Below, piece by piece: positions 38,670 through 44,762 of a stretch of DNA of 64,000 nt (position 1 is the first letter of the stretch; each line of letters starts with the position of its first letter). The notes under the pieces are model-generated. The model did not search any database. It was not told the origin of the DNA and saw only the letters and a list, made by a program, of their open reading frames with translations. A program made the position numbers and the translations under genes. Origin of the DNA: Streptomyces sp. NBC_00557 (GTDB taxonomy: Bacteria; Actinomycetota; Actinomycetes; Streptomycetales; Streptomycetaceae); the NCBI RefSeq assembly GCF_036345995.1, contig NZ_CP107796.1:5332001-5396000 (forward strand), given 5' to 3'.

Positions 38670-39566
38670 TTACGCCGCCGTGGGTACCGGCGTGTAGTGC
38701 GAGGCGTCGCCCTCGATCGCGTAGCTCTCCTTGCCCTCGATGCCGACCGGGACGTCACCGGCGACGGTCACCCGGTGCAGCCGGCGCGGCCGTCCGTCGT
38801 AGTTGTCGATGGCGTAGTGCTGCGTGATCCGGTTGTCGAAGAGGACGAGCTCGTTCTCCGCCCAGCGGTGACGCAGGATGTTCTCCGGCCGGGTGACGTA
38901 CGCCTGGAGCAGGTCGAGCACCTTCCGGGACTCGCCTGCCGACAGGCCGGTGATCCGCTGTGCGAACCCGCCGATGAACAATCCGCGTTCGCCGGTCAGC
39001 GGATGCACCCGGACCACCGGGTGGACCGTGCGGTAGGTGATCGACGTGAACTGGGCCCGCTGGGCGGCCTTCTCCTCGTCGATCTCCTCGTCCGGGACGG
39101 CGTAGTCGTAGTCGTTGGTGTGCTCGGCCCACAGGGTGTCGGCGAGGCGGCGCAGCGGCTCGGGCAGGTCGCGGTAGGCGGCGGCCGCGTTCGCGATCAG
39201 GGTCTCGCCGCCGTACGGCGGGACGGTGATCGAGCGCAGGGTGCTGGCCTGCGGCGGGTTCAGGACGAAGGTGACGTCGGTGTGCCAGTGGTTGGCGCGG
39301 CCCCGCTCGCTGTCGACGGGCAGCACGTTGGGTGCGCCGTCGACCGCGCCGACCGTCGGGTGGGCGGTGGTCAGGTCGCCGAAGTGCCGGGCGAAGGCCT
39401 GCTGCCCGGCGTCGTCCAGCCCGGCGGCGTCGAACACCAGCGCCTTGTGGACGTTCAGGGCCTCACGGATCGCCGCGACCTGCTCCGGGGCGAGCGGCCG
39501 GGTGATGTCGACGCCGGAGACGCGGGCGCCGATGCGTGCGGTGACCTTGGTGATCTCGATGGACAT
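38670..39566 (-). CDS. TauD/TfdA-family alpha-ketoglutarate dioxygenase
   Basis: Fe(II)/2-oxoglutarate-dependent dioxygenase of 298 residues. The iron site is H95-x-D97 (WHTDVTF) and the distal His250 (ITQHYAIDNY), with Arg in RRLHRVTV for the co-substrate carboxylate. Such enzymes release sulfite or sulfate from taurine, alkanesulfonates or alkyl sulfates. It lies downstream of and in the same direction as ssuA-ssuC-ssuB, so its role is probably desulfonation of what that transporter imports. Sequence resembles the alkylsulfatase (AtsK) as much as TauD; the exact substrate is open. Confidence 0.88.
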   Translation of the reverse strand: MSIEITKVTARIGARVSGVDITRPLAPEQVAAIREALNVHKALVFDAAGLDDAGQQAFARHFGDLTTAHPTVGAVDGAPNVLPVDSERGRANHWHTDVTFVLNPPQASTLRSITVPPYGGETLIANAAAAYRDLPEPLRRLADTLWAEHTNDYDYAVPDEEIDEEKAAQRAQFTSITYRTVHPVVRVHPLTGERGLFIGGFAQRITGLSAGESRKVLDLLQAYVTRPENILRHRWAENELVLFDNRITQHYAIDNYDGRPRRLHRVTVAGDVPVGIEGKESYAIEGDASHYTPVPTAA

Positions 39567-39596: not shown

Positions 39597-39731
39597 TCAG
39601 GTACTGGGGGTCGGGACGGGGCGGGCCGTGGCGCTCCCGGAGGCCGGGCGCGGCCGTAGCAAGGTGAACGGCTCCAGTGCGCCGGCCGGCCGCTGGGCGG
39701 GGTTGCCCCACAGCTGGGGGCTCTGTGTCAC
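39597..39731 (-). CDS. Possible 44-residue peptide coupled to ssuB
   Basis: A GTG start at 39731 overlaps the TGA stop of the ATPase gene (GTGA) and has GGAGG inside that gene at a proper distance. The 44 codons have strongly G/C-biased third positions. The product is Pro/Arg-rich (PQLWGNPAQRPAGALEPF) and is not recognised. It could be a small operon member, a remnant of a larger gene, or noise. Confidence 0.3.
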   Translation of the reverse strand: MTQSPQLWGNPAQRPAGALEPFTLLRPRPASGSATARPVPTPST

Positions 39732-40462
39732 CGGTGGTCCTCCGTGACGCCCAGTGCCGCCAGCAGCCGCTCGCGGTACTCGCCCAGCACCGGCTCGCGG
39801 TAGGAGCGCGGATGGGGGTGGTCGATGGCCAGGTCGAGGGCGATCCGGCCCCGGTCCAGGACGAGGACGCGGTCGGCGAGCACGATGGCCTCGTCCACGT
39901 CGTGGGTGACCAGCAGCACGGACGGCCGGTGGCGCTGCCACAGGGCGCGCAGCAGGTGGTGCATCCTGATCCGGGTCAGCGCGTCCAGCGCGCCGAACGG
40001 CTCGTCCGCCAGCAGGAGTTCGGGCTCGCGGACCAGGGAGCGGGCCAGCGCGGCCCGCTGGGCCTCGCCGCCGGACAGCTCACCGGGCCAGGCCCGCTCG
40101 CGGCCCTCCAGGCCGACCTCCGCGAGGGCGGCCCGGCCCCGCTCCCCGGCATCCCTGCCGTCCGCGCCCAGCAGGACGTTGTCCAGCACCCGCCGCCAGG
40201 GCAGCAGCCGGGAGTCCTGGAAGACGACCGACACCCGCTCCGGCGCGCTGATCCCCCCGCCGCCCGCGACGCCGTGGTCGAGCCCGGCGATGGCCCGCAG
40301 CAGGGTGCTCTTGCCCGAGCCGCTGTGTCCGAGCAGGGCCGTGAACTGGCCCGCGGGCAGGTCGAGGTCGATGCCGTCGAGGACCGTACGGCCGTCGAAC
40401 GACCGGGACAGGCCCTGGATGCGTACGGCCGGCGGGGTCAGTTGCCCAGTGTGCGGCGCCAC
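39728..40462 (-). CDS. ssuB: Sulfonate-type ABC transporter ATP-binding protein
   Basis: Cytoplasmic ATPase of 244 residues. Walker A GHSGSGKST is at 45-53, the Q-loop is VVFQDSRLLPW, the signature LSGGEAQR, Walker B LLLADEPFGALD and the H-loop VTHD; this is the SsuB/TauB/NrtD subfamily. GTG 40462 has GGAGG 8 bases upstream and overlaps the 3' end of the permease gene by 25 bases. It would energise import of alkanesulfonates or taurine. Confidence 0.9.
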   Translation of the reverse strand: MAPHTGQLTPPAVRIQGLSRSFDGRTVLDGIDLDLPAGQFTALLGHSGSGKSTLLRAIAGLDHGVAGGGGISAPERVSVVFQDSRLLPWRRVLDNVLLGADGRDAGERGRAALAEVGLEGRERAWPGELSGGEAQRAALARSLVREPELLLADEPFGALDALTRIRMHHLLRALWQRHRPSVLLVTHDVDEAIVLADRVLVLDRGRIALDLAIDHPHPRSYREPVLGEYRERLLAALGVTEDHR

Positions 40463-41283
40463 GACAGCACCCTCCGTTCGATCAGACGGACCACGCTGTC
40501 GGAGACCAGGCCGAAGACGCCGTAGATCAGCAGGCCGACCAGGATGACGTCGGTCTGGCCGTAGTTCTGCGCCTGGAACATCAGGTAGCCGAGGCCGTTG
40601 GTGGCGTTGATCTGCTCCAGTACCACCAGGCCCAGCCAGGAGCCGGTCACCCCGAGCCGGAGCCCCACGAAGAATCCGGGCAGCGCGCCGGGGATCACCA
40701 CCTGGCGGACGAAGGCGAGCCGGGACAGGCCCTGCACCTCGGCGAGTTCGACGTACCGGCCGTCGATGCCGGACAGCGCGGCATGCGTGTTCAGATAGAC
40801 CGGGACGTAGACGACGATCGCGATGATGGCGATCTTGAAGGTCTCCCCGATGCCCAGCCAGAGGATGAACAGAGGGATGAGTCCGAGGGTCGGGATCGCC
40901 CGGTTGAGCTGCACGGTCCCGTCGATCAGCGCCTCCCCGGTGCGGCTGAGCCCGGAGGCCAGCGCGAGCAGCACGCCCGCGGCCAGTCCGATCGCGAAGC
41001 CGTATCCGGCCCGCTCCAGGGAGGTCAGGATGTCGGTGGGCAGGGTGCCGCCGGCCCACAGCCGGCCCGCGGTCCCGAGTACCGTCCAGGGCGCGGGTAC
41101 GGCACCCGTGTCGAGCGCTCCGGCGGCCGAGGCGGCGGCCCACAGGACGAGCAGGAGGAGCGGGCCGGTCAGCCGGGCGGCGGGCAGCCGGCGGCCGGGG
41201 GAGAGGCGGCGGCGCCTGCGGACCCGGCCGGGCTCGGCGGCGGCCCGCGCCGGTGCGGCGGTCGTCGTGGTCACGGCGGTCAT
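40438..41283 (-). CDS. ssuC: Sulfonate-type ABC transporter permease
   Basis: Inner-membrane permease of 281 residues, with about 35 basic N-terminal residues then about six helices and the BPD_transp_1 EAA segment (VELAEVQGLSRLAFVRQVVIPGALPGFFVGLRLG). It belongs to the SsuC/TauC/NrtB family. ATG 41283 overlaps the TGA stop of the binding-protein gene (ATGA), so translation is coupled. Confidence 0.9.
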   Translation of the reverse strand: MTAVTTTTAAPARAAAEPGRVRRRRRLSPGRRLPAARLTGPLLLLVLWAAASAAGALDTGAVPAPWTVLGTAGRLWAGGTLPTDILTSLERAGYGFAIGLAAGVLLALASGLSRTGEALIDGTVQLNRAIPTLGLIPLFILWLGIGETFKIAIIAIVVYVPVYLNTHAALSGIDGRYVELAEVQGLSRLAFVRQVVIPGALPGFFVGLRLGVTGSWLGLVVLEQINATNGLGYLMFQAQNYGQTDVILVGLLIYGVFGLVSDSVVRLIERRVLSWRRTLGN

Positions 41284-42320
41284 TTCCGGTACTCCTCCGG
41301 TACGGCCCTGGCGGCGATCGGCTCGAAGCGGTGGTCGAAGAGCGAGGAGACGTCGAACTTCTTCACGAACCCGCCCGCGGCGAGCAGGTCGGCCGTCTCC
41401 TGCTCCCACCTGATCGCCTCGTCCCAGCTGGGCGGGAAAAGAGGCTTGTTGGCGAGCTTCGAGATGCCCCGCGCCTGCTGCGGCGTCAGGTTCTGCGTCC
41501 TGACGTAGAACTCCTCGTTCCAGACGTCCGCATGCTCGTACTGCCACACCTGGCCCCGCGCCCACGACGGGATGTAGGCGGCGATCGCGGCGGCCTTCGC
41601 GGGGTCGTTCAGCACCGACTGCGGGGCCCACAGCAGGTTGAGCAGGTCGACGACGTCGGTGGGAATGGTGCGGGCGCCCTTCGCCTCGTACTGCTTCAGG
41701 TAGGCGGGCGCCTGGCTGTTGGCGAGCGGAGCCACGTCGACCTGCCCGGACTGCAGCGCGGTGAGGAACTGGTTGCTGGTCAGCGGCACCAGCGTCACCT
41801 CGTCGTACGTCAGGCCCGCCTGCTTCAGCGCCCGCAGCAGTACGACCCCCTGGGCCTGGCCCTGCGAGAAGGCGAGCCGCCTGCCCTTGAAGTCGCCGAC
41901 CGTGCGGATGTCGCTGCCGGGCTTGGTGGCGAAGAGGTAGTTCGGCCTGCGGGTGAGGTCGATCGCCACGATCTTGGCGTCGAAGCCCTGGTAGTGCGCC
42001 TGGATCGGCGGGATGCCGGCGTTGTTGGCCACATCCAGGGACCCCGCGCGGAAGGCGTTGATGACATCGGGACCGGCCCCGATGTTCACCCAGCTCGACA
42101 CCTTGAACGGCAGCGCCGGCAGCTTCGCCAGCCGGAACTGCAGTTGCTGGACGTTCTGGTAGGAGGCGATCCTCAGGCTGGTGCCGGCCGGGACCTTGCC
42201 GGCGAGCGGCCTGGTGGCGGCGCCCTTGGCGTCGGCCGAGGCGTCGCCCTTGGCGCAGCCGCCGAGGCCCACGGCGGCGGACGCGCCCAGCAAAGAGGCA
42301 AGAAACACACGACGGTGCAT
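41280..42320 (-). CDS. ssuA: Sulfonate-type ABC transporter substrate-binding lipoprotein
   Basis: A 346-residue NrtA/SsuA/TauA-type binding protein. The N-terminus is a lipoprotein signal with a basic pair (MHRRVFLASLLGASAAVGLGGC, lipobox Cys at 22). The mature domain has typical NMT1-like segments (VDVAPLANSQAPAYLKQYEAKGARTIPTD). Start ATG 42320. First structural gene of the ssu operon; its leader holds short cysteine-rich ORFs, suggesting control by sulfur supply. Alkanesulfonate and taurine homologues cannot be told apart by eye. Confidence 0.87.
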   Translation of the reverse strand: MHRRVFLASLLGASAAVGLGGCAKGDASADAKGAATRPLAGKVPAGTSLRIASYQNVQQLQFRLAKLPALPFKVSSWVNIGAGPDVINAFRAGSLDVANNAGIPPIQAHYQGFDAKIVAIDLTRRPNYLFATKPGSDIRTVGDFKGRRLAFSQGQAQGVVLLRALKQAGLTYDEVTLVPLTSNQFLTALQSGQVDVAPLANSQAPAYLKQYEAKGARTIPTDVVDLLNLLWAPQSVLNDPAKAAAIAAYIPSWARGQVWQYEHADVWNEEFYVRTQNLTPQQARGISKLANKPLFPPSWDEAIRWEQETADLLAAGGFVKKFDVSSLFDHRFEPIAARAVPEEYRK

Positions 42321-42526: not shown

Positions 42527-43726
42527 TTAAATACCCTCAGGTGACACGCCCAGCGGATCCCGGAACACCACGTCGAGCATGACCGATCCACCGGCCACCG
42601 CCAGCACGGAATCCGGGAAGCTCGTCGGCACGACGGCGGCCGCACGCCGTGTCCCCACCGCCTCCCGCAGCGCGCTCAGGCAGTCCTCGAAATGGACCAC
42701 CCCCACCTCGGTCACCACCACGGTCTCCGGATTGAGCACGTCCAGCAGCAGTCCCGCCGCCCGCCCGGTGGCACGGGACCGCTCCACCAGCAGCCGCCGG
42801 GCCACCGCGTCCCCGGCCGCCGCCGCGGCCACCACCCGCATCGGACCGGCCGCGCCGGCCACCCCGGCCGCACCTGCCCGCCGGCACAACGTCCGTTCGC
42901 TCAGCTCCACTTGCAGGCAGCCGGTACGGCCGCACGGGCACGGCTCGCTGCCGCCCGGCACCGGCAGATGCGCGATCGCCCCGGCCGCCGAGCGCGGCCC
43001 GTGGTGCACCTCGTCATGGGTGGCGAAGGCCGCGTCGACCACGTTGCCCACGAACAGGTGCAGCACGCTGCCGCTGCCCCTGGCCCGACCGAACAGCCGC
43101 TCCCCGTTCACCAACGCCCGCGCGTGGCCGTCCACATGGACCGGCAGGCCGGTGCGGGCGCCGAGCAGCTCCCGCACCGGCACCTCACGCCAGCCCAGCA
43201 GCTCGTGCTCGACCACGGTGCCCGTCTCCCGGTCCACCCAGCCGCCGGCCGCCACCCCGACGCCCAGCGGCCGCCGGCCCGGCACGCCGGCGAGCAGCCC
43301 GGCGAGGCCCTCGGCGGCCCGGGCCAGCACCCAGCCGGGATCGGTCCGCTCGTGCCCCAGCTCCCGCCGGGCCACCACCCGGCCCCGCAGATCCAGCAGC
43401 GCCACCGTCGTGTACGGCACGGCCACATGCACCCCGGCGACCAGGAACCGTCGGTCGTCCAGGTCGACGGGTACGTGCGGCCGGCCCACCCTGCCCGAGC
43501 GGCGGGGCACGGCGGACTCCCGGATCAGGCCCAGACCGGCGAGCCGGGCGCAGTGCTCGGTCACCGACGCGGGCGACAGCCCGGTCAGCCGGGCGATGGT
43601 GCTGCGCGCCACCGGCCCGTGCTCCAGCACGGTCCGCAGCACGACACGGGCGCTGGTACGCCGCCGGTCGCCGTCGGCGGCACGCGGAAGGGGCGGGGCC
43701 GAAGGGGACACCGCGGTACGGGGCAT
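42527..43726 (-). CDS. ROK-family transcriptional regulator
   Basis: A 399-residue ROK repressor/activator with a winged helix-turn-helix (about 25-80, VARSTIARLTGLSPASVTEHCARLAGLGLI) and a ROK domain carrying the zinc cluster CPCGRTGCLQ. ATG 43726 has a GAGGAC ribosome site. It sits between the ssu operon and a leader ORF, on the same strand, so it may control sulfonate uptake, an unusual job for a ROK protein. It lacks close similarity to the csnR-type protein at 2118-3329 beyond the family fold. Confidence 0.88.
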   Translation of the reverse strand: MPRTAVSPSAPPLPRAADGDRRRTSARVVLRTVLEHGPVARSTIARLTGLSPASVTEHCARLAGLGLIRESAVPRRSGRVGRPHVPVDLDDRRFLVAGVHVAVPYTTVALLDLRGRVVARRELGHERTDPGWVLARAAEGLAGLLAGVPGRRPLGVGVAAGGWVDRETGTVVEHELLGWREVPVRELLGARTGLPVHVDGHARALVNGERLFGRARGSGSVLHLFVGNVVDAAFATHDEVHHGPRSAAGAIAHLPVPGGSEPCPCGRTGCLQVELSERTLCRRAGAAGVAGAAGPMRVVAAAAAGDAVARRLLVERSRATGRAAGLLLDVLNPETVVVTEVGVVHFEDCLSALREAVGTRRAAAVVPTSFPDSVLAVAGGSVMLDVVFRDPLGVSPEGI

Positions 43727-43801
43727 GGGGGACCGTCCTCGGGAACGGGGGCCGACACGACTCGGAGCTGTACGAGCAGAGGCGCGCCGGGTGGTCCGCC
43801 C

Positions 43802-43888
43802 CTACCCCGGGCGGCGACAGGTGGCCGTGCCCTGGCGTCGCAGGTCGACATAGCGACGCGAGGTGAGATACCGGGCCTGGGCAACCAT
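43802..43888 (-). CDS. Candidate leader peptide (28 residues) upstream of the ROK gene
   Basis: ATG 43888 encodes 28 residues containing LTSRRYVDLRR and TATCRR, ending at 43802, 75 bases before the ROK start. This resembles the conserved actinobacterial putative leader peptides with an RR(H/Y)VDL core and a Cys near the C-terminus, often found ahead of sulfur-metabolism genes. A -10 box TAGCTT (43896-43901) lies 7 bases before the ATG, the classic leaderless arrangement. Confidence 0.65.
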   Translation of the reverse strand: MVAQARYLTSRRYVDLRRQGTATCRRPG

Positions 43889-43895
43889 GCGGAAG

Positions 43896-43901
43896 AAGCT
43901 A
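43896..43901 (-). promoter_or_regulatory. -10 box of leaderless leader ORF
   Basis: TAGCTT, 7 bases upstream of ATG 43888 on the minus strand; no convincing -35 hexamer. The rest of the gap up to bioY (about 43902-44180) shows no further clear structure. Confidence 0.5.
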
Positions 43902-44180
43902 GCAAAACACCCCGAGGCTGCCCAGACGGCGCCCGACGGGCGAGACGGGCCCGACTGCGCTTTGGCCGGACCCTACAGACGGTCCGTCAGCCGGTGAGGT
44001 AGCGCGGCCCACGCCACCTCAGTGACCGGCATCACGCCAAACCCGGTGTAGCCGCCACCCTTTGTCCGGAGCCCACCAAGCCCCGGTGCACGCCTTTGTC
44101 GGCCGGTGACGGTGATCGGCGCGCGGGGCGCGGTATAGCGTCACGGTGTTCCCATCTGCCCACACACCCGCGGAGTCCCC

Positions 44181-44762
44181 ATGAGCACCGCCACCGCCAC
44201 AGCTCGCCCCGGCGCAGTCCTCGCCGACCTGCTCCCCGCGTCCCGCGTCCGCGACGCGGCCCTCGTCGTCGGCGGCGCCGTGCTCACCGGCCTGGCGGCC
44301 CAGGTGGCCGTCCCCGTGCCCGGCTCCCCGGTGCCGGTGACCGGCCAGACCTTCGCCGCGCTGCTCGTCGGTACCGCGCTCGGCGCCCGCCGCGGCTTCC
44401 TCTCCCTCGCCCTGTACGCGCTCGCCGGCGTCGCGGGCGTTCCGTGGTTCGCGGGCGGCGCCTCCGGCGCCGGCATGGTCTCCTTCGGCTATGTCCTCGG
44501 CATGGTGCTCGCCTCCGCCGCCGTCGGCGCCCTGGCCCGGCGCGGGGCGGACCGCTCGCCGCTGCGCATGGCCGGCGCGATGCTCCTCGGCGAGGCGATC
44601 ATCTACGCCGTCGGCGTGCCCTACCTGGCCCTCGCCGCCCACGTCTCCCTCACCGAGGCGGTCGCCCTGGGCCTCACCCCGTTCCTGCTCGGCGACGCCC
44701 TGAAGGCCGCGCTGGCGATGGGCGCGCTGCCCACCGCCTGGAAGTTCGCGAACAAGCGCTAG
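44181..44762 (+). CDS. bioY: Biotin transporter BioY
   Basis: S component of the energy-coupling-factor biotin importer, 193 residues, about six membrane helices. The conserved BioY segments are present: VPVPGSPVPVTGQTFAALLVGTALGARRG, LYALAGVAGVPWFAGG and GEAIIYAVGVPYLA. ATG 44181. No EcfT/EcfA genes are adjacent, so it may work alone or with shared ECF units. Followed by a convergent hairpin. Confidence 0.92.
   Translation: MSTATATARPGAVLADLLPASRVRDAALVVGGAVLTGLAAQVAVPVPGSPVPVTGQTFAALLVGTALGARRGFLSLALYALAGVAGVPWFAGGASGAGMVSFGYVLGMVLASAAVGALARRGADRSPLRMAGAMLLGEAIIYAVGVPYLALAAHVSLTEAVALGLTPFLLGDALKAALAMGALPTAWKFANKR

Follow-up and report, generated by a model that had tools for sequence, protein, structure and literature searches.

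The locus analysed here raises the question whether a very short open reading frame (ORF) on the minus strand, ahead of a gene for a ROK family regulator, is a gene in its own right and, if so, what its translation might sense and which genes it might control. It lies in a stretch of 64,000 nt from Streptomyces sp. NBC_00557 (NZ_CP107796.1, 5,332,001-5,396,000), called the window here, and all coordinates are positions within this stretch. Translation of 43802-43888 gave 28 codons followed by TAG, corresponding to the peptide MVAQARYLTSRRYVDLRRQGTATCRRPG and then the stop; upstream of the leader, bioY is located in the opposite orientation. The arrangement described in the original prediction was found again: the hexamer TAGCTT (43901-43896) is followed by 7 nt and the ATG at 43888, the stop codon ends at 43802 and leaves a gap of 75 nt to the ROK start codon at 43726, and the ROK gene precedes an ssu operon with genes of the SsuA, permease, ATPase and TauD types (Table 1). 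The cysteine, which had been described as C-terminal, is residue 24 of 28; it is the sole one in the peptide and not part of a run. We consider it fairly probable that this ORF encodes a leader peptide acting in cis, by which the ROK-ssuACB-tauD operon is attenuated in response to cysteine.

Table 1. Features of the leader-ROK-ssu locus (window coordinates). Counts for the ssu and tauD neighbours refer to loci with enough sequence (80, 78, 78 and 77).
Feature	Position	Strand	Basis and remarks
Leader ORF, 28 codons and TAG	43802..43888	-	Translation; kept in 78/80 and 30/30 ROK loci
TAGCTT, -10-like hexamer, 7 nt 5' of the leader ATG (43888)	43896..43901	-	TAnnnT spacing in relatives
GTCTGGGCAG block	43918..43927	-	Alignment conservation; putative role
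Core-motif residues V-D-L (codons 14-16)	43841..43849	-	VDL in 57/57 leaders of 28 aa
Proposed sensor codon: TGT at codon 24, for the Cys located 8 residues past the L of VDL	43817..43819	-	TGT in relatives
Stop-codon hairpin, 5' arm AGGGGCG	43797..43803	-	Homologous helix covaries in relatives
Stop-codon hairpin, 3' arm CGCCTCT	43778..43784	-	Pairs with the 5' arm 43797-43803
Shine-Dalgarno-like GAGGA of the ROK gene	43736..43740	-	Sequence; most orthologues have this or a similar one
ROK family regulator, 399 aa	42527..43726	-	PF00480, E 3e-27; MarR-like HTH below cut-off
SsuA-type binding protein	41280..42320	-	TIGR01728, E 1.5e-28, below its cut-off; PF09084; 80/80 loci
SsuC-type permease	40438..41283	-	PF00528; 78/78 loci
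SsuB-type ATPase, 244 aa (putative)	39728..40462	-	Sequence; 78/78 loci
TauD-type dioxygenase	38670..39566	-	PF02668, E 1.8e-60; 77/77 loci

Judged by its conservation among orthologues, the leader ORF is real, deeply conserved and not a product of chance. A first draw of 80 orthologous ROK loci from named genomes, the best 80 of 131, contained the ORF in 78 cases, and the two other loci are contig ends at which 11 and 96 nt precede the matched part of ROK. The leaders of this draw were located via the ROK gene, using patterns without a cysteine requirement. The second draw comprised 199 genomes of the genus, 83 of them with a ROK match and 43 at an identity of at least 74% (own genome included); the ORF was present in all 30 loci examined out of these 43, with a pattern that did require a cysteine, and both draws overlap in species. 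The occurrence of the ORF upstream of orthologous ROK genes, on which the original prediction had been made to depend, was hence observed in both sets. Mean conservation in an alignment of 79 rows was 0.90 for the leader, 0.90 for the GTCTGGGCAG block, 0.87 for the -10 hexamer and 0.73 for the gap between leader and ROK; the stretch from -129 to -40 just upstream, which partly includes the GTCTGGGCAG block, averaged 0.56. Another block at approximately 44018-44078, between bioY and the leader, has a mean conservation of 0.80 and is possibly a promoter or operator of bioY.

The peptide matched the model NF042934 ('putative leader peptide') with 23.5 bits and an E value of 3.1e-5, which is below the cut-off of 27 (21.7 bits in the genome search), and NF042933 (Ms5788A) with 11.9 bits and an E value of 0.13, below the cut-off of 45. 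An orthologue of the leader in genome G104, just ahead of its ROK gene, passes the NF042934 cut-off with 32.1 bits. On these scores the leader is a divergent relative of NF042934, in line with the likeness to sulfur-linked leader peptides of actinobacteria that had been proposed, and therefore neither the leader nor its likely function is new in kind. At E<=0.001, NF042934 matched 41 of 41 genomes of the genus and 141 of 196 genomes of the class (60 of 81 genera), but none of 14 controls; at E<=10, matches also appeared in 10 of the 14 controls, none of them above the cut-off. Each Streptomyces genome carries 3 to 14 matches at E<=0.001, and the genome analysed here has 14 at E<0.04, nine of which exceed the cut-off. 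One ORF was checked behind eight of its 13 other leaders. Genes related to sulfur thus lie behind other leaders of this genome, the ORFs checked being those for cysteine dioxygenase, a cysteine-synthase-like PLP-enzyme, flavin reductase, sulfite/nitrite reductase, a luciferase-like monooxygenase, rhodanese, TauD and a 2OG oxygenase. Three leader matches of this genome (L015, L022, L016) lie on one strand within less than 5 kb (G000:C1:1132444-1137183), L016 being its sole parsed leader without a cysteine at +8 from the L of VDL, and two others (L023, L019) are placed back to back in divergent orientation (G000:C1:8175947-8176433). NF042933 and NF042934 hit identical places in many genomes, and thus look like parts of one family.

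Transcription likely starts at the leader ATG. The 3' end of the TAnnnT motif is separated from the ATG by 7 nt in 66 and by 6 nt in 13 of the 79 ROK-clade leaders, and the -10 motif TAnnnT of S. lividans lies upstream of the transcript start at a mean distance of 6.3 nt, 17% of the transcripts being leaderless (PMC8079986); it is this agreement in spacing that makes a start at the ATG likely. The GTCTGGGCAG block includes a possible -35 element, CTGGGC, with a spacer of 18 nt. The leaderless start of the original prediction finds support in the promoter spacing, but a scan of the locus for the strict sigma-70 consensus gave no promoter match. A leaderless start as a rule for the whole leader family was rejected, as the TAnnnT spacing occurred in only five of 13 parsed leaders of the own genome and in seven of 29 leaders of a genus sample.

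The order of genes in more distant relatives bears on the question of what the leader controls. In a second ROK clade, which heads an ssu operon as well, 14 of 20 loci with 49-55% identity have a separate leader ahead of ROK, typically of the form MQRSAHLTTRGHVDLKRVCSAACHRA. TTGACC is present in these 14, and 7 nt separate the ATG from TACGTT, replaced by TACCTT in one locus; the ROK gene follows. SsuA relatives are present in 14 of 14 of these loci, and in the only one tested (L140) a flavin reductase gene (PF01613) lies between ROK and the SsuA relative. The remaining six loci have a TauD relative beside ROK, and the pattern search upstream of ROK yielded no leader in them; this pattern demanded a cysteine 3-12 residues past the motif and can miss leaders. 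At L156 the leader was missed by the pattern and was placed 3' of the ROK gene by the family search. Six loci with 47-49% identity (L153, L155, G001, G003, G022 and G054) likewise have the leader 3' of the ROK gene. We conclude from this gene order that the leader belongs to a sulfur operon, in which ROK is the first gene after the leader in two clades. Since the leader sits after ROK at those other ROK genes, it probably controls the whole ROK-ssu operon and not the regulator alone, with ROK and the ssu genes presumably forming a single transcript. A role in sulfur metabolism is plausible for the ROK protein of the window, because the ROK proteins CysR and SsuR of C. glutamicum activate the use of sulphate and sulphonates (PMC2580772); the ROK domain and the constant ssu neighbours would fit a regulator of the SsuR type.

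A further hint at what might be sensed comes from a single codon. The cysteine codon at +8 was TGT in 79 of 79 ROK-clade leaders (72 distinct), including 57/57 leaders of 28 aa, and UGU was found at +8 in 14/14 leaders of the second ROK clade as well. For the wider family, leaders were gathered regardless of codon and mostly as the top-scoring match per genome (141 loci, 136 parsed, 129 distinct). A cysteine at +8 was lacking in two of the 129 distinct leaders, and the codon was UGU in 127/127 of the others. The other cysteine codons within the same leaders comprised 144 UGC vs 41 UGU, with UGC:UGU ratios at single positions of, e.g., 56:6 at +1, 34:9 at +6 and 10:9 at +9 (Fisher test for +8 against other cysteine codons, p 2e-51, relatedness ignored). 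The ROK orthologue genes themselves use UGU for 31 of 494 cysteines. Other near-invariant residues of the leaders are not locked to one codon, with D encoded by GAC in 103 and by GAT in 26 cases and R(+2) by CGC in 77, CGT in 22 and CGG in 18 cases. The NF042934 and NF042933 models partly select for the place of the cysteine at +8, but not for its codon. In the 79 ROK-clade leaders, the cysteine is separated from the stop codon by four residues in 61, three in 14, six in three and nine in one, and two of the 14 leaders with the three-residue distance have a second cysteine. Codons 11-18 of the leader (43858-43835) contain the uncommon CGT in 57/57 and CGA in 50/57 leaders, CGA making up 1.8% of the Arg codons in ROK genes; due to the complementarity of CGUCGC and GCGACG in this segment, the leader itself may additionally fold.

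Both tRNA-Cys genes found carry the anticodon GCA, so that UGU is expected to be decoded by wobble. They were called by ARAGORN on the loci covering 68 tRNA matches in the genome; one match was not called and was assigned by eye to Gly (TCC). The two genes, L339 (G000:C1:5036708-5036781) and L309:1390-1463, agree at 31 of 74 positions without gaps. Of 31 genomes of the genus, 28 match L339, one of them weakly; several show partial extra matches at distances between about 100 bases and some 15 kb, which may mark an integration site. The UGU rule did not turn up in the open-access literature searched, mostly by general queries, and may be stated in Canestrari 2020.

Between the leader and ROK, a hairpin begins at the leader stop codon. 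The gap of 75 nt in the window compares with about 62-99 nt in most orthologues and 31 to over 100 nt in others. Aligning all 78 distinct rows together left too many gaps for a consensus fold; the rows were then split by stop type, with 12 long ones omitted. Pair counts come from 27 of the 78 rows, which were hand-picked and all have TGA stops except L062 and L093, the window's own leader being of the TAG type. In these rows 137 of 137 cells of the stop hairpin were paired, two pairs were doubly changed, and GC, UA and CG alternate at one pair. No slid version and none of 500 shuffles attained the covariation score, whereas 62 of 500 shuffles attained the two doubly changed pairs when these were counted alone. 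Three of the 27 rows (L052, L065, L075) are misaligned and were mostly set aside; by eye, they place GAGGCC opposite GGTCTC. The stop hairpin was also present in the consensus of the 26-row TAG group, where each position was paired in 19 to 25 of the 26 rows. Tested on single sequences, the strength of the stop helix did not exceed that of shuffles (4/75 at p<0.05). A switch sequestering the Shine-Dalgarno site was rejected, as the energy for opening the ROK start with the ribosome at the cysteine codon vs the stop codon differed little and inconsistently over 78 sequences. A long competing helix ahead of the Shine-Dalgarno site, seen by eye, did not rise above shuffles and was discarded. The terminator scan found none between leader and ROK and one site in the promoter region (43926-43911). 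A plasmid match was not found.

Taken as a cysteine attenuator, the locus would operate as follows. Transcription would begin at or beside the leader ATG, as the promoter spacing suggests, and the leader would be translated without a Shine-Dalgarno site. The ribosome would then reach the single UGU codon, eight codons past the Leu of RR-H/Y-VDL-x-R. A shortage of charged or fully modified tRNA-Cys would be expected to make it halt at UGU with the motif in the exit tunnel; otherwise, it would run on to the stop codon, which forms the 5' end of the conserved hairpin. Depending on which of the two positions the ribosome takes, the RNA upstream of the ROK start would fold differently, and downstream expression would change. 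We infer stalling, cysteine sensing and the direction of control, with expression expected to rise when cysteine is short, for the sulfonate transporter genes as well as for the regulator that likely acts on them. The originally predicted coupling of cysteine availability to the regulator is thus kept as a conditional claim, strengthened by the codon-specific cysteine, but it would probably concern the whole operon and not the regulator alone. The nascent chain participates in ribosome halting by known arrest peptides. The fixed spacing of a peptide motif and one codon suggests that the nascent chain takes part here as well.

Several other explanations for the conserved ORF have to be weighed. 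Short ORFs are common in G+C-rich DNA, and a chance ORF would thus be no surprise in itself; its conservation in 78/80 and 30/30 loci rules this reading out. Plain translational coupling, in which the leader merely loads ribosomes for the ROK gene with no cysteine sensing, agrees with the short gap of 75 nt and with the coupling by comparable small ORFs discussed in PMC4633059. It leaves the peptide motif, the cysteine and the UGU in 79 of 79 leaders unexplained, and we regard it as unlikely.

The near invariance of many third codon positions in the leader and the covarying hairpin could also be expected if a conserved RNA or DNA element, either regulator-binding or riboswitch-like, were under selection and the ORF incidental to it. 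Such an element is quite unlikely, as the leaders of the second clade and others keep the peptide motif with different codons, and a comparison of 43500-44300 with Rfam gave no family at its cut-off and one sub-threshold match on the other strand. The very high conservation of the peptide would suit a small protein acting in trans; we consider this very improbable in view of the 3 to 14 family matches per Streptomyces genome, located before different genes in the own genome, and of a conservation at the codon level that would be unexpected for such a protein. A cis-acting cysteine attenuator is the reading that we follow here. Tentatively, and with more doubt than conviction, we hypothesize that the actinomycete leader family as a whole represents a two-part ribosomal sensor, in which R-x-H-V-D-L-x-R stands at a fixed distance from an obligatory UGU and sulfur status would be read by wobble decoding, i.e. 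by tRNA-Cys charging or a sulfur-containing modification beside the anticodon, and not by cysteine counting; in this locus, it would set the sulfonate regulator and its targets. Matches to the leader family occur in 141 of 196 sampled genomes of the class. With an invariant codon at a set distance from the motif, an exchange of UGU for UGC, leaving the peptide the same, would separate codon from peptide sensing.

The open-access literature searched, mostly by general queries, yielded no leader peptide upstream of a ROK gene, and we found no earlier description of the leader-ROK-ssu arrangement, although the leader itself is of a known kind. If our reading is true, a single step at the RNA level would let cysteine supply set the sulfonate genes together with their likely regulator. 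Predictions of cysteine leaders without terminators exist for Mycobacterium, P. acnes and B. longum (PMC1262725), ribosome occupancy of a cysA2 leader was observed in M. smegmatis (PMC4633059), and attenuation of cysteine genes by leaders of the same class is reported for M. smegmatis (Canestrari 2020, according to PMC9031893 and PMC13236596). With the NF042934 family, the window leader shares the position in a small ORF before sulfur genes and the core that we describe for this family, R-x-H/Y-V-D-L-x-R-x5-C with the cysteine at +8; unlike the members above the cut-off, the window copy scores below it and heads a ROK-ssu operon. The mycobacterial leaders of the Ms5788A type (NF042933) likewise have VDL followed by a UGU cysteine at +8, and some places match both models, but they carry several cysteine codons near the stop, whereas the window leader has one and no poly-Cys run.

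SsuR and CysR of C. glutamicum are ROK-type regulators of sulphonate and sulphate use, a role that is plausible for the ROK protein of the window, and their own transcripts are leaderless. In contrast to the proposed control by a leader peptide, which the available part of that report does not mention for them, these ROK genes are under McbR, and ssuR also under CysR (PMC2580772). The amino-acid attenuators of Streptomyces and other actinobacteria share with our locus a leader peptide, often leaderless, that contains regulatory codons (PMC8079986, PMC1262725). The window leader differs from them in having no terminator-like site between it and the gene behind it and in combining a single fixed codon with a peptide motif.
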